Assembly: GCA_028751875.1 (NCBI GenBank)
Contig: CM054140.1
Location: 25,336,646-25,400,645 of the forward strand
DNA from: Rapana venosa
Taxonomy: Eukaryota; Mollusca; Gastropoda; Neogastropoda; Muricidae
Direction: 5' to 3'
DNA: 64,000 bases
Under the pieces are notes generated by a model. That model saw nothing but the letters and a program-made list of their open reading frames with translations, did no database searches and had not been told where the DNA came from. Both the position numbers and the translations under genes were made by a program. Positions 28,442 to 63,844 of this stretch are shown piece by piece (position 1 is the first letter of the stretch; every line of letters starts with the position of its first letter).

Positions 28442-29055
28442 GGTGAACGCAAGGGAGTGAACAAGTATTATCCGCCAGATTTTGATCCATCCAAAGGGTC
28501 ACTGAACACATGGCTGGGGACCCATCCACTGCGCGACAGGGCCCGCAAACTGCACAAGGGAATCCTTGTGATCAGGTATTCATTAATACAGGAGTGCAGT
28601 CCTCATCACAATGGGCAGACAGTCTGCAGTAGTGAGGAATGCACTTTTTTTTTCTTTCTTTTATCTTGTTACCTACCCTCCACAACCTATTCCCCTCCAC
28701 TCATTTCCCCCAATCATGCTGTCTGATTGTACTGGAAGAGATAGCTATTGGTTAATTTGATAAAACATTTTGCCTGGCAACATTTATACATGAAATAAGT
28801 TGCAAACCGTGTCACAGTGCTTTCTCACAAGTTAAGAATTTATGTTCATGAAAATCTGAACATGGACAAGGAAGGAAGGAAGGAAACTATGGAGCCTTAC
28901 AAAAGCAACAAACGATGAAAAACCTTCAACAGTTTCTGTAGTCTTAGAAGTTAATGATGAAGTCCTCACTGGCAAGCAGGCTGCTGACCACCTCATCAAC
29001 ACCTTTGAGGAGATCAGCAGCATCAACGTCCCCAAGGACAGAGAGGGGCTGTCTC

Positions 29056-29113
<58 letters not shown>

Positions 29114-30189
29114 GAGTTTCACTGCCGCTTGTAAGGACCTTTCTAGTAGGGCAAAGAATGCGTTGGTATATATAATGCAAAGGTTGTATACACTTAACAA
29201 CAATTCTTTTGGGCTGTTAATGAAGCTATTTGACTCGCAGATTCAACCAGTTCTTCAGTATGGGTCAGAATTATGGGGGTTGGACAAAGCAGCAGTACAC
29301 TGTGAATCCGTTCATTTGTTTGCAATAAAGAAATACTTAGGAGTTGATAGACGAACACCCAATGATATCATCTATGGTGAAACTAACAGATATCCTTTGT
29401 ACATAAATTCTGCAGTTAACTGTATTCGTTATTGGATTAAGTTGCTACAAATGGAAGATCTGAGACTACCACATAAGGCTTATAAAATGTTGTATAATTT
29501 AGATGCAAGAGGAAAGACAAATTGGGTATCAAGGGTGCGTGTCTGTTTAAATGAAAATGGTTTTGGAGATGTGTGGTTGAATCAAGGTGTGGGTGATGCT
29601 TGTGTGTTCATTAAAGTTTTTCGTCAACGATTAATTGACTGCCGGTGGCAAAACTGGAACCATCACATTGATACTAGCCAAAGGTTTGAAATTTATAGAA
29701 CATACTGTAATGGTCATGACTTAAAATGCTATTTACAACTTGACATGAATCGACAACTGAAACACATCACAGCAAAATTTAGACTCGGTATATCTGATCT
29801 GAATGTACATCGTTTAAGATACAGAACATATAATGATCATGATTTGTTATGTCCTTTATGCAATGTGTCACAAGAAGATGAAGTACACTTTGTTCTATGT
29901 TGCCAACAATTGCATGACCTTAGATTGAAATTTATTCAACAAAAATATTATAGGAAACCATGCTTGTTTAAATTGAATTTATTGATGTCTTGTACAAATC
30001 CTGAAGTTATACAGAACTTTTCTTTATATTTGTACAAGGCTTTCAAAGTTAGAGAAATACTCACTTCGTGAAGTAACGTACAACTTCGTGATCAAACGAC
30101 TTTTCATTGTATTTATGTTATGTATAATATTGTTCACATTCCCCTTCATAAGGGGCTGAGGCCTATTTGAATAAATCATCTGCGTCTGC

Positions 30190-30343: not shown

Positions 30344-32065
30344 GAGATCAGATCTTCAGTTTTCCCATTGTGCAATTATGAAAGGACAGAGAGTAAGGAG
30401 TACTGAAAGTAGGTAGGACCACGGCTGCCACTAACCGGGTAAGTAATGGGGAAAGTGGCAAAATTGACTAACTTTACGACCCAATTTCTCCATACAAATC
30501 TTAAAGAAAACCTTTCAAAAATATACCAATAAAAAGTTCAATGCATCAACTCAACGTCTATAATATTATTTTGCACGAATGGTGACTGTATAAGAGCAAG
30601 CGATGTGTTAAATATCGGTCATAAACTGAAAAATCCCCGCTGCCGGAGCCTCGCTCACAAAAAACGCAACTCGGTGAACTTTCGTGCTTCGTCTTCTATC
30701 ATGATCGGGGAGCTTTCAACAACACAAAACCTATTCATAGCGCATACCATTGGAAAGAAGAAACTTCCCGCTAACCGAATATATGATGGGATTTTTTGTG
30801 AATTTTTTCAAAGATATAGTATTATACGTTTAAAAATTACCTGCATTTTGCGGAAGTTGTAGAAATTTCGGTATTAATCGTAGAAAAAATCCTAAAGCAC
30901 CATTAGAAAGCTCTTTTTTTTCAAGAACAAATACCTCGTTTCAGTTTATCGCTTAGTTCCGCTGATGACGTCCCGTTCTCATTAGCATACAGTACCCCCC
31001 CTTTCTCTTAGTGAAAGAACAGGAACAGTACAGGACTGCTGACTCAAGGGAAGAAATCTTGAGAGCCTTTTACAAAGAAAGAATTTGAAGTATGTCATTA
31101 TTACGCATATAGGGTGTTCGTGTGTTAAATTATATCATGATAAATATTACTGTACATAAAGGGGTGTGTGTATGCCATGTATGTGTGTGTATACGGATAA
31201 TTAGGGGTGTATTGCTTATTATTTTCAGCCACAGACCTTACTGTTTTTTGTCGTTAATGTTAACAAAATAATCGCTAAACTTAGTCTGTTATATTTTTTT
31301 CCCCTCTAAGGGTTTTGGTGACTTTTAATGTTTTAGATTTTAAAATGAACTGGGAAGAGGTCTCATTGAAACTGAAAGTAAAATATTGGATTACTACATT
31401 TTACCCAAACAGAAAAGGTGTACTGTGTTTGCTAATAATGTATACAAATCACATCAGTAATTTGAAATGTGTTATGGCAATATCATATTTGTCTTTTGTG
31501 GTCATTGTGTGGTAAGTCAGTAAGAAATGGACTGTGTGTGTTTTTGGGTAGGTTTGAAATGCCCTACAACATCTGGTGTGGGGGATGCAATAACCACATC
31601 GGCATGGGTGTACGGTACAATGCAGAAAAGAGTAAAGTGGGCAACTATTACACCACCCCTATCTACAAGTTCCGCATGAAATGTCACCTTTGTGACAACT
31701 ACTTTGAAATCCAGACAGACCCAAAGGTAAGAGTCCTTGCTTTCTCATTATCTGTCACTTCTCTCTGATTGGGGGTGGGGGTAAGGGGGGAGGGGGGGTG
31801 TCAGGATCGGGATGTGTTCTTGGGGGATTGGTTTGGATTTTTTGCTGTTGTTTTGTTTTTGCTCGGGTACTTTGTTTGTTGATGGTGTTTTGTGAAATAG
31901 ATTCAAAGAAAACCCAGCTTTATGTATGTGTAATTGATGTCATTGTTTCAGTAAAAAAAAAAAATCAGTTCATTGAATGTTTGAAGTGTGTTATAATGTT
32001 GAAAATTATTTGATGTTTCTGTTTTTAATTGAAAACTGCCTATCAATCATCCAACTTACTTTATT

Positions 32066-32131
<66 letters not shown>

Positions 32132-34561
32132 CAGACTGTTTTTCTCTCCTTCATAGTGTTTCCACTTTTTGAAAAAAATCAACAAAGACTGGAAATCAAC
32201 ACAGGTCTTTATTTTGATTTTGTTTAAAGACTGATAAAACAAGCACGTTTCAGGACAGCCCATGTATGGAAATGTTTGTAACATAATTTTTTTTTAAATA
32301 TTTTTTTAATGTTTCTGACATGAAGGATGTTCAAAACCTGTCTGTATGCTGCAGAATCATGATTATGTGATACTGTGTGGTGCTCGTCGAAAGGAGCAAA
32401 GGTGGGATCCTCGGGAAAATGAGCAGATTGTGCCAGAAGGTGTGTATTATTTTTTTATATGAAATATTTTTAACTGATCGGAACTTAGTAATTGGATTGA
32501 AAAAAATACAGCAACGGAAAGAAAAAGTATGTACTTATTTATTTATTTATACCACTTTAAGTCACGGCAGATTTCTCTGTGTGAAACTCAGGCTGCTCTC
32601 CCCGGGGAGAGCGTGTCGCCACAAGAGCAGCGCCACCTTTTTTTTTTTATCTTTCCTGTCTGCAACTGTATTTGTTTCCCTATCAGGGTGGCTTTTTTCT
32701 ACAGAATTGTGCCAGGGACAACTCTCTTGTTGCTGTGGGTTCTTTTATGTGCGCTAACTAATTATGTGTAACACACGGGATCTCAGTTTATTGTCTCATC
32801 CGAAAGACTTGTGCCCAGACCACCGCTCATGGTCTAATGGATGGGGGGAAAGTTTCAGGTCCAAACAGGACACTTCCAACCTGGACTTTTCGCTTTCTAG
32901 ACAGGCGCGTTACCTCTAGACCACCGTATCTTGTCAGTATTTAACTGTATTTCCACCACTATCACCTCCAGCTCCCTCTCCCCCCCCCCCCCTTCCACCC
33001 AAATAAAGAGAATCTAGCCTTATAAGTTATAATCACAAGTAAGCATATGGTATTTACAACAACAAAAAAGGTTAAGTTTAATTTAATGGCTGTCTGTGTT
33101 GACTTTGTAATGTGTTCAGTCTAGGTACTGAAAACAGTTTCATTGTGCTGATATGTGTATGAGATACAGACTTATGTTGATTGAAGTGCTCCCTTGGCAG
33201 ACATGTATTGATTGAAATTATCCCTTTGCAGACATGTATTGATTGAAATTATCCCTTTGCAGACATGTATTGATTGAAATGCTCCCTTGGCAGACATGTA
33301 GTGATTGAAATGCTCCCTTGGCAGACATGTATTGATTGAAGTGCTCCCTTGGCAGACATGTAGTGATTGAAATGCTCCCTTTGCAGACATGTATTGATTG
33401 AAATGCTCCCTTGGCAGACATGTATTGATTGGAATGCTCCCTTGGCAGACATGTAGTGATTGAAATGCTCCCTTGGCAGACATGTAGTGATTGAAATGAT
33501 CCCTTTGCAGACAAAGCCACACAGAAAAAGCTGGCCACAGACCCCATGTATAAACTGGAGCATGGCTCTGATGACAAGCAGCGAGGACAGGTCACCCAGA
33601 TGAGTGTCAGCCAGGTCGAGGAGAAGCGGGAAGTTTGGCTGGATGACTACAAGCTCAACCAGATAGCCAGGAAGAAGTTCAGAGTGAGTTCTGTGCAGTT
33701 TTCAGCCTTGACCAGATAGCCAGGAAGAAGTTCAGAGTGAGTTCTGTGCAGTTTTCAGCCTTGACCAGATAGCCAGGAAGAAGTTCAGAGTGAGTTCTGT
33801 GCAGTTTTCAGCCTCGACCAGATAGACATGAAGAAGTTCGGATTGAGTTCTGTGCAGTTTTCAGTCTTGACCAGATAGCCAGGAAGAAGTTCAGAGTGAG
33901 TTCTGTGCAGTTTTCAGCCTCAACCAGATAGACATGAAGAAGTTCGGATTGAGTTCTGTGCAGTTTTCAGTCTCAACCAGGTAGCCTACAAGTGAGTTCT
34001 GTGCAGTTTTCAGTCTCAACCAGAGAGATAGGAAGAAGTTCAGAGTGAGTTCTATGCACTTTTCAGCCTTTCATCTCTGCTCTCAATCTGTCTTACGTTT
34101 TAAGAACATCTCCAGTATGATTATGCTTGTGACATGGTTTTTTTTAAATGTTTTAAGTGAATTCTTTTGATTAATTATTTTCCCTAATTAAAAAAAAAGT
34201 GATTTTGATTTTTGCTGGAATAAGTTGAAAGTCAACATATTTTCAAATGTATTTACTAAGTGCAAAATGTGTGAGTTGTTTGTTTTTTTTTTGGGGGGGG
34301 GGGGGGGGATATGTATGTATGGTCTTGTGAATTTGTGTGCCTTTTTACTGCTTACAGTATAGCACTCACTAGTCAGGAGGGTGGGGTTGGGGGGATTGAA
34401 GATAAATTATAACAAACAGTGTTCCAACAACAAACTTCAGCACCTGCCTCCACCAAAAAAATTTTTTTTTTAAATATCAATGTCCATCATAAAGCAGAAA
34501 CTTTAGGCTTACATTTGATGTTTTTTTTAGATTTAAACAGTAACAAAATGATAGTTTATAT

Positions 34562-34594
<33 letters not shown>

Positions 34595-36242
34595 TGCAGG
34601 AAGAAAAGAAGCAGATAGCTGCCACCAAAGCCAAAGACCAGGCATTGCTGGACAAGTCTTCCCTGGACATAGACTTGGTACCTGAAAACGAGAACGACCA
34701 AAAGATAGCCAGCCTGCTCAAGTACTCTGTCACTTCATGTAAGATCATTCCCCCTTACCTGTGCTTGTGTGTCCATTGTGTGATGTTTGTGGTTTGATTA
34801 TTACATTCTTACGGAATGAAGTAGTGTGGGTGTTGGTACCAAAATTATCTTAGTCCAAGTTGTGCTTTACTTTGAAAGCAGATAATGTAAATTGATAAAG
34901 ACTGGGGGGGGGGGGGGGGGGGGGGGGGGGGCTGGTTTCTATTTTGGGGGTGGGCTTTTTTTGTTGTTCGGGGAATTGGAAGGTTGGTTTATTCAAACTG
35001 CCAAGACAAAAAAAATTCAAGGACTTTTAAAAAAAAAGACTTTTGAAATGATATTTAAGGGTGTGTTTAACAATATCTAAGCCTTCACTCTTTTACAATA
35101 ATATTCAAGAATTTTGTTAGTCAACATTTGAAGGGGACTGCTCTTATGTTCAAAATTTTATGTAAAATCACTAAATGTACCATACAGAGAAAAGAACAGA
35201 GAAAAAAGCTGTTTGTTAAACATAACATTCTGTATTTGACTTTTATCTTATGATAAACTTTAGACCGGGACAAATCTGGTATGACAGGGGCGGAGAGATT
35301 AAAATGAGCGGTGAAGGAACAGGACAGGAATGTCACAGAAGATGAGGCAGCAAAAGAACAAAAAAAAGATTGACCTGGTATCAAACTAGGTCATTTTGTT
35401 TGGTTGTTGTTTTTTTGTGTGTGTAAAAATAACAATATCCTAGAAAGGAAAATGGTTTTCAGTAATTGTCTCCCTTGATTAGCCTCTCTGCAGGCAAGTA
35501 CTTGCTAGACACGCTCTTTGGTTCTTAGAAACATTCCGGTTAATTAAGCTGGATCCAGGATATAAGGGTGGTAGGTCTACATGGGGAAAAGATCTGGAAA
35601 TTAACCACATAAATCAAGTGATAATCCATGTAGGCCTACATTGGAATGAAGTAACTGATGACCATGTTTTATTCCACAGCGTTTGACGAAAACCAGCAGA
35701 AGAAGAGGAGAAAAATCGAGGAAGAACCAATCTTCTCCATATCAAGATTCTCCACTAAACCCGGGTCAAAGAGTTCTTTCAGTACTGATGCACTGCACCG
35801 AGTCAGGAACAAGCTGGGTATCGGCTTCTCATCACCAAAAACAAGACCATCTTCAAAAGCCTCTGCCTTGAAAGGAGTAGTGAAGACTTCACGTACACAT
35901 GCAGTTTCAAGTACGACAAAGTCTTCTTGCACGTCACAGCATGAAGAGTCTGCCTCTCAAGAAGAGGTTCCTGTCTGCACAGACACAAGTAACCATGCTT
36001 CAGAAAGTGAACAACTGTCAGAAGTAGCCAACGGTGCAAGAGCTGAGGCTGTGGAAGTGATTACAGAAAGTTCCTCTGTGGTAGAACATGCAGATTCTGC
36101 GACTACAGACTTGGTGAGTGAGAGTAAATCTGCTGATACTGAGGATTCATCAAACAGAAAGAAATGTGATGACTACCAGACAGGCATGTCTACTCTTATT
36201 GCTTCCTATGCAGACAGCGATTCGTGTGATAGTCATGATTAA
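28442..36242 (+). CDS. YJU2B: YJU2B (CCDC130), spliceosome-associated CWC16-family protein
   Basis: A nuclear pre-mRNA splicing factor of the Yju2/CWC16 family. Coding exons: 28442-28575, 31552-31726, 32355-32439, 33511-33683, 34600-34738 and 35680-36242, all GT-AG with agreeing phases. The initiator Met must be in an unseen upstream exon, since the first visible codons are GERKGVNKYYPPDFDPSKGS, which follow Met directly in relatives. Predicted length is 423 residues against about 396 in human. The conserved zinc-type Cys pairs CGGC (55-58) and CHLC (90-93) flank NHIGMGVRYNAEK. VPENENDQKIASLLKY matches the distal conserved block. The Ser/Thr-rich tail ends ASYADSDSCDSHD. Exon 33511-33683 is bracketed by tandem arrays copying its splice sites. 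Confidence 0.95.
28915..30170 (+). mobile_element. LINE fragment in YJU2B intron, C-terminal domain intact for 300 codons
   Basis: 28925-29048 encodes LTGKQAADHLINTFEEIS, the region before the RT. A CT run (29050-29112) then replaces the RT core, and 29112-30071 is an open frame beginning FTAACKDLSSR. That frame carries FDSQIQPVLQYGSELW, GVDRRTPNDIIYGETNRY and a CPLCNVSQEDEVHFVLCC zinc knuckle. The same protein order is found in the LINE at 48.3-49.75 kb. It is in the same direction as the host gene and ends TTGAATAAATC before another CT run. Confidence 0.8.
30190..30345. repeat. (CT)n microsatellite at LINE 3' end
   Basis: About 155 bases of CT with a few C interruptions, directly after the LINE terminus GCGTCTGCGT. 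Confidence 0.9.
30350..31551. other. YJU2B intron, unassigned
   Basis: 30420-31010 looks like an old insert (even base content, TGATGACGTCCCG near 30963), but I found no inverted ends or coding motifs. The rest is AT-rich. Confidence 0.45.
32068..32130. repeat. (CT)n microsatellite in YJU2B intron
   Basis: Two CT runs split by one TT step. Confidence 0.9.
32540..32935 (-). repeat. SINE, family B copy with tRNA-like head
   Basis: On the minus strand it starts near 32930 with GGTGGTCTAGAGGTAACGCG (A box-like). It then passes a CTTTCGGATGAGACAATAAA central-domain remnant and GAACCCACAGCAACAAGAG, and ends at the ACTTAAAGTGGTATAAATA side. A second copy is at 59830-60145 and a scrap at 16240-16315. 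Confidence 0.65.
33172..33510 (+). repeat. 31-bp satellite copying the 3' splice site of a YJU2B exon
   Basis: Eleven near-identical 31-base units (TTGATTGAAATG, CTCCCTTGGCAG or TCCCTTTGCAG, ACATGTA). The last unit is the genuine pyrimidine tract and AG acceptor of the coding exon at 33511. Every earlier unit therefore carries a potential acceptor. The unit is not a multiple of three, so use of the immediately upstream one would shift the frame. Confidence 0.9.
33653..34075 (+). repeat. 53-bp satellite copying the 5' splice site of the same exon
   Basis: About eight units of roughly 53 bases. Each carries the last codons of the exon (CCAGATAGCCAGGAAGAAG, TTCAGA), a GTGAGT donor (ATTGAGT in two units), and TTCTGTGCAGTTTTCAG. 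The first unit is the real exon end (33683). Each unit also contains a TTTTCAG that could act as an acceptor, so single units could be read as microexons. Confidence 0.9.
34739..35679. other. YJU2B last intron
   Basis: Poly-G run at 34903-34930, T/A-rich DNA, and a family IV SINE scrap at 35255-35345 (GGAGAGATTAAAATGAGCGG, ACAGGACAGGAATGTCAC). A second long G run at 34300-34309 and an (AT)n run at 34561-34582 precede the exon at 34600. Confidence 0.6.
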
Positions 36243-40898: not shown

Positions 40899-41810
40899 TT
40901 ACTGCTTCAGACGCCATTGAATGTAGACAGCCTTGAAGCTGTCGAAGCCAGCCAGCACACCAGCACCAGCCACGCCACGCAGGATGTTGGCACCAGCTCC
41001 CTTCATCATGGACATGAAGCCCTCGTTCTTCATGATCTGCCTGGCGCAGTCAATGGAGCCCTTGTATTTGACGGCCTGTCCAGAGGTCATCATCATGCGT
41101 CGTCGGATAGTGTCAATGGGGTAGGACATCAGACCGGCGGTCACGGTCACAGCATAGCCCAGACAGAAGGACATGAAAACGTTGGCGTCATCTCCCAACA
41201 TCAAAGGCTTCAGGGAGTCGTACAGACCGAAGTAGAAGCCACGGTATACAGCAATACCAACGCAAGAGATGACGAAGCCTCTGTAGAGACCAACAAGGCC
41301 ATCAGACTTGATGGTTTTGGAATAGACATCGATCAGACCATTGAACTGACGCTCGCCTCCGCCCTTTCCGGCAGCCTTGGCATCGTTGGCCAGACGGGTA
41401 CGTGCATAATCTAGGGAGTAGACAAAGCACAGGGACAGGGAGCCAGCAACAGCGCCAGAGACGATGTTCTTGGAGAACTTTGATGCATAGGATTCATCCC
41501 GTGAGGTCTTGAACATGGCCTTGACTTTGTCCTTGAAAGCGAAGTTGAGGGCCTGAGTGGGGAAGTATCGCAGGCAGTTAGCCAAGTTGCCACGCCAGAA
41601 TGGAAGGACACCTTCTGTGCGAAAGGTACGCACTGTGCAGTCGATCACCCCCTTGTAGGGCTCTGACAGACGACCGGCTTTGATCATTTCATCTTGGTTC
41701 TGCACCAGCAGCTTGATACGCTCAATGGGAGCAGCTGCTGTTTTGGAGATGACGGCAGCAACACCGGAGAGACCGAAGTTCTCAGCAAATCCAAGTTTCT
41801 TGGAGCCCAT
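40899..41810 (-). CDS. SLC25A4: ADP/ATP carrier (adenine nucleotide translocase), copy 1
   Basis: It exchanges cytosolic ADP for matrix ATP across the mitochondrial inner membrane. It has 303 residues in one exon, starting [12 protein letters not shown], with the ATG exactly behind a TTTGTTTCAG acceptor (41811-41812); longer upstream frames are intronic. Three mitochondrial carrier repeats are visible with PIERIK (28-33), SLDYARTR (132-139) and PIDTIR (231-236). The nucleotide-carrier hallmark RRRMMM is at 236-241. Length and order match animal ADP/ATP carriers. The symbol is the closest vertebrate name; orthology to one of the vertebrate paralogues is not implied. A paralogue lies at 62870-63778 on the same strand. 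Confidence 0.97.
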
Positions 41811-41944
41811 CTGAAACAAAGAAAATTGTACACAACTGTTACTATACCTCAAATTTTAACAACTTTGCAGTAGCATACTGTCAGCACTGTATGATGTGCC
41901 AGAGCGTTTTGTTGTATTCTTTTTAAAACACTGAACGAGGTACA

Positions 41945-48311: not shown

Positions 48312-49745
48312 TCGAACTCAACTCGAACTCAAAGATTTATTCACAAAAGGCCATTGGCCCATACATGATGGGGGGTTGCCAAACTGCTTAGTATTTTAGT
48401 GAGAAAAATAAGTAACACAAAAAAAACAAAATGTTATTGTATACCCACAACCAACACAATAAAAATCAGTTTTAAAAATATGACTCAGGAAACCAAGATA
48501 TCTCTTATTCTAAAGGCTTTACACAAATATAAAGCAAGGCTGCGCACAATCCACAATCGCAGGGTGACTAGATGCCATGAGTAGACAGAATCTAAATAAA
48601 TTAGGCTGTCTACTCTACTTTACCGGAATGTAATTCTGTCTTACATCTTCTAATACTTGACAGCAAAGAACAAAATGAACTTCATCTTCCACTGTTTGCT
48701 TCCATAATGGGCATAGCAACCTGAGGTCATCATCTTGTTGTTCTATATATCTACATTTATGAACATTTATGTCTGATACACCAAGTCTAAACTTAGACAT
48801 AATTCTTTTCAAATGTATGTCCATATCAAGCTTTAAATAAGGTTTGACATGCGTGAACCTATAAATTGTCTGTTCATTTGAAATCTTTCACTGTTTTGTA
48901 TAGGACCACTCCACTGCTGCCAACGGCAGTCAATCTGTCTTTGCCTGAAAATGTTGATAAACTCTCTACAATTTCCGACTCCTTGATTGAGCCAAACAAA
49001 CCCAAAGCCAAGTTCACATAAACAGGTACGTATTTGGGAAGCCCAGGTGCTTTTCCCCTTGACATCTAGATCATAAAGCATCTTGTAAGACTTAAAAGGT
49101 AGCCTGCACTCATCCATATGCAGAATCTTAATCCAATATCTAATGCATCTTACAGCAGCATTAACAGAGAGAAGATATCTATTGGTTTCACTATAAACAA
49201 GATCATTAGGTGTACGTCTATCTAAGCCTAAAAACTGCTTTAAAGCAAAGAGGTGTACTGATTCACAATGTGTTACAGCTGCATCCAGTTCCCAAATTTC
49301 CGTGCCATATAACACAGTGGGTTGTATTTGTGCATCAAATATCTTAATGAATAAGTCAAAAGCATTATTATTCAATAATCGTAATTTCAAAACAATTAAC
49401 AAGCTTCTTTTACCTCGACTTGCCAGATCTTTACATGCAGTTGTGAAACTAAGCTTTGTAGAAAAACAGATTCCTAAATATTTATATACATTAATCACAG
49501 GCATGACTTTTCCATTGTACATCCATTTTTCGTGAGCAGCTAAATAACCACCTTTTCTGAATACAACAATATTACTCTTATTCAGATTAACCTTAAGATC
49601 AAGTGCTGTTGCAGCACTGCTTAAGTTATTCAGCTGCTGTTGTAAGCCTACAACAGTTTCAGATAGCAGGATGACATCATCAGCAAGCAGAAGAATAAAC
49701 AATTGTGTGAAATCATCTTGGGGGAAAGTGGCACCATGTTTACCC
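48310..49745 (-). mobile_element. LINE, RT end plus C-terminal domain, one frameshift
   Basis: A minus-strand frame from about 49745 reads FILLLADDVILLSETVVGLQ (RT YADD-like box), IVVFRKGGYLAAHEKW, YKYLGICFSTKLSF, FDAQIQPTVLYGTEIWELD and GLDRRTPNDLVYSETNRY. After a frameshift near 48855 come THVKPYLKLDMDIHLKRI and the Cys/His motif CPLWKQTVEDEVHFVLCC, stopping at 48615. Same family as 28915-30170. The first knuckle Cys pair is altered (CPLW). The 3' end is AATAAATC then the AG/CT tract. Confidence 0.85.
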
Positions 49746-49749
49746 TTAT

Positions 49750-49817
<68 letters not shown>
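49750..49817. repeat. (AG)n microsatellite truncating the LINE
   Basis: A pure AG run directly at the 5' break of the LINE. Confidence 0.9.
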
Positions 49818-49820
<3 letters not shown>

Positions 49821-49902
49821 ACTGCATTGTCCATCTATTTTCCAGTAAATGTATAAATGAACCGATTTTGCCAAAGATAGACACCGCCAGTGTTGTCTCT
49901 TT

Positions 49903-62869: not shown

Positions 62870-63778
62870 CTACTGTGTCACACGCCACTGAATGTAGATG
62901 GCCTTGAAGCTGTCGAAGCCAGCCAGCACACCAGCACCAGCCACGCTACGCAGGATGTTGGCACCAGCTCCCTTCATCATGGACATGAAGCCCTCGTTCT
63001 TCAGAATCTGCCTGGCGCAGTCGATGGAGCCCTTGTATTTGACAGACTCTCCGGAGGTCATCATCATGCGTCGTCGGATAGTGTCCATAGGATAGAATAT
63101 CAGACCAGCGGTAACCGTCACTGCATAGCCCAAGAGGAAGGACACAAAAACGTTGGCATTTTCTCCCAACATCAAAGGCTTCAGGGAGTCGTACAGGCCA
63201 AAATAGATGCCACGGTATATGGCCATACCAAAACAGGAGATGACGAAGCCTCTGTACAGACCAACAATACCGTCCGACTTGAGGGTTTTGGAATAGACAT
63301 CGATCAGACCTTTATACTGACGCTGACTTCCTTCTCCAGCAGCCTTGGCGTCGTTGGCCAGGCGGGTACGTGCGTAATCCAGGGAGTAGACGAAAACCAA
63401 GGACAGGGAACCAGCAGCAGCACCAGAGAAAATATTTTTGCTGAACTTTGAGGCGTAGGATTCATTGGGTGAGGACTTGAACAATGCATGGACTTTGTCC
63501 TTGAAGGCAAAGTTGAGGGCCTGAGTGGGGATGTATCGCAGGCAGTTAGCCAAGTTGCCACGCCAGAATGGAAGGACACCTTCTGTGCGAAAGGTACGTA
63601 CTGTGCAGTCGATCACCCCCTTGTAGGGCTCTGACAGACGACCGGCTTTGATCATTTCATCTTGGTTCTGCACCAGCAGCTTGATACGCTCAATAGGCGC
63701 AGCTGCGGTTTTGGAGATGACGGCAGCAACACCGGAGAGAGTGAAGTTCTCAGCAAAGCCAAGTTTCTTGGAGGCCAT
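62870..63778 (-). CDS. SLC25A4: ADP/ATP carrier (adenine nucleotide translocase), copy 2
   Basis: Mitochondrial inner-membrane ADP/ATP exchanger of 302 residues, starting [12 protein letters not shown] right behind a TTTCTTTCAG acceptor. The 5'UTR exon and promoter lie beyond the window. [20 protein letters not shown] and RRRMMM are all present. Compared with copy 1 there are only two changes in the first 82 residues. Differences cluster in the middle ([39 protein letters not shown]), and the last segment is again near-identical until VTQ. The symbol is the nearest vertebrate name only. Confidence 0.97.
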
Positions 63779-63844
63779 CTGAAAGAAAACAAATTTTGCA
63801 AGATTGTTAACTAACTTCAATCATTAAACTTATTTCTGTTGTTC

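Follow-up and report, generated by a model that had tools for sequence, protein, structure and literature searches.

Tandem arrays of splice sites on both sides of a YJU2B exon in Rapana venosa, and at exon junctions of other genes

An exon of a putative splicing-factor gene of Rapana venosa lies between two tandem arrays, each of which multiplies one of its own splice sites, and this raises the question whether the additional sites serve the gene or belong to a wider process that has also reached it. All positions given below refer to the window, that is, the whole stretch of 64,000 nucleotides that was analysed, unless a locus is named.

The YJU2B exon and its two arrays

The open frame of the host gene comprises 423 amino acids, derived from six coding exons and an assumed upstream exon carrying the ATG:

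28442 to 28575, plus strand: coding exon; the ATG is assumed to lie in an exon further upstream
31552 to 31726, plus strand: coding exon; no junction copies found
32355 to 32439, plus strand: coding exon, 5' of the 31-bp array; no junction copies found
33511 to 33683, plus strand: coding exon of 173 nt, entered in phase 1 and left in phase 0, with the frame kept at both bounds
34600 to 34738, plus strand: coding exon, 3' of the 53-bp array; no junction copies found
35680 to 36242, plus strand: last coding exon, with TAA at its end

A profile search assigns the protein to the Saf4/Yju2 family (PF04502, 1.7e-76), and within this family it belongs to the YJU2B rather than the YJU2 branch, as it matches YJU2B (9s2e) at 9.6e-103, saf4 at 8.9e-40 and the best YJU2 at 5.7e-18. 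Both junctions of exon 33511-33683 are covered by gap-free protein alignments with nine homologues, six of them from named gastropods; in one of these six, from Pomacea (P0007), the sequence differs just past the second junction. Among the named proteins in the best 120 of 2549 matches, the closest is that of Nucella lapillus (75% identity), followed by Babylonia and other gastropods, and none of these 120 reaches the identity expected of a product of the same species. The window also contains two long frames, one inside a YJU2B intron (28860-30071) and one at 48615-49834, which by eye resemble parts of related retroelements, as well as two similar frames on the minus strand (40899-41855 and 62870-63820), which by eye resemble ADP/ATP translocases.

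The arrays on the two sides of exon 33511-33683 are built as follows:

33170 to 33510, plus strand: eleven 31-bp units (starts 33170, 33201, 33232 and so on to 33480), with a short run of pyrimidines and CAG at the end of every unit; in the last unit this CAG is the true acceptor
33654 to 33706, plus strand: first 53-bp unit, composed of the last 30 exon nucleotides (LNQIARKKFR) and 23 intron nucleotides with the true donor
33707 to 34067, plus strand: seven further units, six of 53 bp and one of 43 bp
33737, 33790, 33896, 33992 and 34045, plus strand: GTGAGT kept
33843 and 33949, plus strand: TTGAGT in its place

Tandem Repeats Finder (TRF) reports the upstream array at 33177-33513 (period 31, 10.9 copies, 93% match) and the downstream array at 33658-34070 (period 53, 8.0 copies, 84% match), and the two have the highest scores among the 70 TRF rows of the window. 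With their head-to-tail, imperfect units of about 10-100 bp, both are minisatellites by form. The description in the earlier note of eleven 31-bp units before the exon, each ending in CAG and the last at the true acceptor, agrees with the unit count as well as with TRF, and its view that both splice sites of one YJU2B exon were multiplied by two separate expansions stands, the units of the two arrays being unrelated to each other. The AG is kept in all ten upstream unit acceptors, and one extra AG is found at 33168-33169, just outside the units. On the donor side, where about eight units had been described, eight are present; GTGAGT, however, which was ascribed to each of them, occurs in six, and unit 7 is the one of 43 bp. 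Five of the seven downstream donor copies thus retain GT. The other junctions of the gene yielded no copies in a junction test with 28-nt windows at 80% identity.

Tandem arrays can be mis-sized, and one could suspect an assembly artefact, or at least a gross error in array length. We regard this as very improbable, given that the units differ by variants instead of being exact copies, that a search of the 2.28-Gb genome assembly with the array block returned only the block itself, and that other loci carry arrays of other units.

Predicted use and strength of the extra sites

Combining 12 acceptors (including the AG just upstream of the units) with 6 donors gives 72 pairs, of which 71 truncate YJU2B; only the true pair yields the full protein. 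Taken singly, each of the ten acceptors in the upstream units meets a stop only a few codons on, the AG at 33168-33169 likewise leads to an early stop, and at all seven unit positions downstream, two of which have no GT, the frame also ends early, with a product of 201 amino acids. The expectation that alternative use would usually shift the frame was too mild, every single alternative unit site being predicted to end in an early stop. None of the best 120 of 1483 matches to the truncated 201-aa form shows same-species identity (highest value 84%). One Pomacea protein (P0121), which covers this form to a high degree, was considered as a read-through product and rejected, as it continues with FREEKKQ.

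It might be proposed that the extra sites add protein isoforms, either as alternative splice sites or by way of microexons. TTTTCAG, which had been pointed out as a possible microexon acceptor in the downstream units, is indeed present in all eight, but its scores are weak (-3.4 to 0.6 on an approximate matrix, versus 2.1 for the true next acceptor), and microexon use would rest on weak acceptor sequences only. Two of 20 microexon combinations keep a product of more than 400 amino acids, one of them with an in-frame microexon of 21 nt (33971-33991), and at the kinesin locus described below one of 24 decoy donors is in frame. Against this, every single alternative acceptor or donor of YJU2B runs into a stop, and a role in protein diversity seems to us most unlikely.

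The strength of the sites was scored with simple matrices of approximate metazoan values. On this scale the true YJU2B acceptor has a score of 1.5 and its ten upstream copies range from 0.6 to 3.8, three of them exceeding the true one; the true donor scores 2.6, as do four of the intact copies, while the fifth reaches 5.0 and thereby surpasses it. All ten acceptors and all five intact donors accordingly lie no more than one unit below the true score, or higher. Intrinsic strength as judged by a simple matrix fails to single out the true YJU2B sites, and as the decoys score about as well as these, the choice between them must depend on position or context. Candidate cues for such a choice are exon definition and exonic enhancers at both ends and, for donors in addition, the order of transcription.

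Splicing-factor genes are known for poison exons and unproductive splicing, and the arrays could constitute a regulated switch of this kind: decoys would compete with the true sites, their use would end the frame early and send the message to decay, and the level of YJU2B would thereby track the fidelity of splicing, in a form of autoregulation. At YJU2B the alternative sites are predicted from sequence to give early stops; truncation by 71 of the 72 pairs, the near equality of decoy and true-site scores, the membership of YJU2B in the Saf4/Yju2 splicing-factor family and the presence of an array in a further gene, which is DDX23-like, all speak for this possibility. It should nevertheless be noted that an early stop is to be expected from nearly any long extension, and that the survey below bears on the same question from the side of other genes.

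Junction arrays in other genes

As controls we used exons of other genes from the same genome, 109 loci in all (90 loci and 19 RRM loci). The flanks extended over 1.5 kb for WD40, Helicase_C, AAA and Saf4/Yju2 matches, 450 nt for kinesin exons and 150 nt for RRM exons. The 20 kinesin exons (of 82 matches listed) and the 19 RRM exons (of 64) were chosen by hand, not at random. Thirteen of 103 loci were left out (matches that overlap or lie side by side in one gene, very long frames with a relative of theirs, likely pseudogenes, and a YJU2B exon), none of them with a junction copy, and some of the 90 kept loci carry stops inside the match and may be pseudogenes. Control junctions were placed by matrix within the open frame, some of them with uncertainty; at L046 the matrix first chose a decoy, and the junction tests were redone at the true acceptor. 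The test with 28 nt at 80% missed L007 and L051, and L088 was outside it; window and threshold were then loosened, to 22 nt at 81% and at 77%.

Three of the 109 loci (L046, L088 and L007) have a splice site in three or more further copies nearby, and these were confirmed by protein continuity across the junction or by homology. L046 is DDX23-like (spliceosomal), with a DDX23 match over the whole 58-residue exon. Its acceptor, TTTGCAG|TACAATGCTACAAC, is repeated upstream in units of about 63 bp, which include 14 nt of the exon, and all of the 17 upstream TTGCAG|TAC sites would give a stop in the exon frame. L088 is a kinesin motor exon, a name that comes from its match to PF00225, the peptide having found no match in NCBIfam. 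The donor junction of this exon reads GCCAAAACAG|GTGAG, after which a degenerate array of 22-bp units, about 33 in number, extends over 694 bp; of the 24 downstream GGTGAG sites, 23 would lead to a stop and one is in frame. Upstream of this exon (L088 together with L125) lies an array of 35-bp units, counted as 8.7 copies at 91% or as 11.0 at 79%, whose end is about 20 nt short of the acceptor, so that the exon is flanked by minisatellites on both sides, the upstream one not containing the junction. L007 is NLE1-like, its best single-stretch PDB match being Notchless homologue 1. The exon ends in ACTGGCGA|GTGAGTG, and a degenerate array, which fills most of the downstream intron, holds four exact further copies of the donor-spanning 15-mer; GTGAGT occurs another 42 times, in each case with a predicted stop. 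It is the weakest of the three positives, as the copies of its 22-nt junction reach only 73-77% and the arrays called by TRF start about 80 nt past the junction.

The L051 donor (copies 43 bp apart) and the L065 acceptor (74 bp apart; L065:1381-1560, gene strand) were apparently duplicated once, and L068 and L101 have one further junction copy each. From the two copies of L051 and L065 to the roughly 33 of L088, these loci look like stages of array growth. Several other candidates were rejected: L076, whose acceptor has nine copies, is by eye a TG-rich microsatellite; L009, L056, L075 and L102, all found with the 22-nt test at 81%, have a low-complexity appearance; at L044 an array adjoins the acceptor, but by eye its units are without AG; and at L023 a 119-bp array lies close to the acceptor, not at it.

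Two observations concern arrays of other kinds. One is an intronic array of units of about 26 bp (L052:2488-3114 and L085:1-120) in a DEAD-box helicase gene, some 970 nt upstream of the apparent next coding exon; most of its copies have a branch-point-like part, a pyrimidine part and CAG. At G000:C8:28509628-28511077 five RRM matches are evenly spaced by about 310 bp, as though an exon of this type had been tandemly repeated with its surroundings.

Regarding rates in the 90 loci, three or more copies were obtained for 4 of 173 junction windows (7 low-complexity windows excluded), and for 3 after rejection of L076, compared with 242 of 4349 intron windows and 2 of 1015 exon-interior windows, whereby the intron and exon windows overlap and are not independent. 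The 38 junctions of the 19 RRM loci showed no copy, at a sensitivity lowered by the short flanks. At fixed distances of 20-1000 nt from the exon the share amounts to 2.7-8.1% and does not increase as the exon is approached. In 70 loci, 23 of which contain minisatellites, such repeats account for 6.1% of the 206,157 flanking bases; under a stricter test, in which the junction has to lie inside a minisatellite called by TRF, L046 is the only one of the 70 (kinesin and RRM loci being outside this test). A 37-bp unit near a WD40 exon (L012:74-1305) is repeated about 34 times at 92% match. Junction arrays are therefore not peculiar to YJU2B; in this small and partly hand-picked sample, arrays are somewhat rarer across junctions than in introns and are hardly ever found in exons. 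This order of rates is as expected from a neutral process combined with selection on the coding side.

The special tie to a splicing-factor host, which the earlier note had implied, is not supported, since arrays are also found at kinesin and NLE1-like exons and the junction rate does not exceed that of introns; the splicing-factor identity of the host gene looks coincidental and the link weak. The same two results weigh against the switch considered above, given that kinesin and NLE1-like genes have no obvious reason to sense splicing, and we consider autoregulation by unproductive splicing of YJU2B unlikely, though not negligible.

Rows of donors could also recruit U1 snRNP and in this way keep the intron from being cleaved and polyadenylated too early, or assist transcription by some other route; U1 snRNP is known to guard introns against such cleavage. 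The 43 GTGAGT in the L007 intron and the 25 GGTGAG at L088 (the true one included in each) would fit, but acceptor arrays would be left unexplained and the donor is lost in two of the eight YJU2B units, so that we give this proposal very little credence.

Origin and meaning of the arrays

The reading which we consider probable is that of tolerated minisatellite growth, in which the true sites are mostly used, the decoys have no selected function and the YJU2B arrays are part of a genome-wide process. The genome is rich in intronic minisatellites, some of which reach up to or across exon-intron junctions. Short tandem duplications may by chance have taken in both splice sites, 3' and 5', of one YJU2B exon; the two minisatellites would then have grown by slippage or unequal exchange. 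After a duplication that spans a junction, the exon edge can still carry one complete junction, so that such a duplication should harm less than one within an exon; such events would be tolerated because the copy adjoining the exon keeps the right splice site. The additional copies would be decoys without selected function, and the majority of transcripts most likely still use the true sites, by virtue of exon definition and the closeness of these sites to exonic signals. From the open frames we infer that the exon-adjacent copy is used often enough; the duplication mechanism, the predominance of true-site use and the absence of function are likewise inferred.

Two features of YJU2B count against tolerated decoys. 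In the 53-bp units the intron-derived part is less diverged than the exon-derived part (7.0% versus 15.4%, or 7.5% versus 11.6% without unit 7). The strong decoys are the other, since such sites might have been lost from neutral arrays in a gene under constraint. Also to be weighed on this side are the stricter TRF test, which leaves L046 alone among 70 loci, the weakness of L007 as a positive, and the fact that both splice sites of a single exon are seldom affected. Sites no more than one unit below the true score, or higher, account for six of six at L007, but only for 4 of 14 intact ones at L046 and 3 of 20 at L088, and the mostly weaker decoys of the latter two could mean selection against decoys. 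One may also conceive the arrays as a standing feature of the lineage, affecting a few percent of exons and perhaps thousands genome-wide (a figure extrapolated from a small, partly hand-picked sample), with decoys drawn into control in some genes, such as YJU2B and the DDX23-like helicase, where competition between sites would set the amount of productive message and read out splicing fidelity; we hold this broader version to be rather improbable as well.

Compared with known systems, the arrays resemble intronic minisatellites or VNTRs in their tandem imperfect units (22-63 bp, 8 to about 33 copies), but differ in that the unit comprises a complete splice site together with 3 to 30 nt from the exon edge, and in that the array abuts the exon. 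Tandem duplication of pieces carrying splice signals can create new intron ends, as in cases including ATP2A1, potato RdRp and fission-yeast genes, and 24-bp AGGT repeats in two fission-yeast genes are a near precedent (PMC4974935). The duplicated piece carries splice signals in both situations, and several copies occur in the fission-yeast genes; there the copies provide the splice sites of a new intron, whereas here they lengthen an existing intron and leave the coding structure unchanged. Intron gain by tandem duplication was considered for YJU2B and rejected, the exon-adjacent junctions alone explaining the homologous protein.

Tandem alternative splice sites, for example of the NAGNAG type, likewise offer several possible sites near one exon edge, but the arrays have a spacing of 31 and 53 nt and many copies, whose use is nearly always truncating. 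With the poison exons and unproductive splicing of splicing-factor genes they share the early stop predicted for the use of a decoy, the difference being that arrays of the YJU2B type also exist in non-splicing genes. In the literature covered, which is thin for subscription journals, no description of whole-splice-site arrays bordering exons was recognised.

The wider recurrence of junction arrays is more interesting than the single case of YJU2B. Genes in which the true site has as many as 17 look-alike acceptors upstream, or look-alike donors by the tens downstream, amount to a natural experiment on splice-site choice; they must still be spliced correctly, which bears on the preference for the first, the last or the exon-adjacent copy. 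The growth of minisatellites can cross exon-intron junctions, with consequences for the annotation of genes and for variation between individuals where genomes are of this kind.
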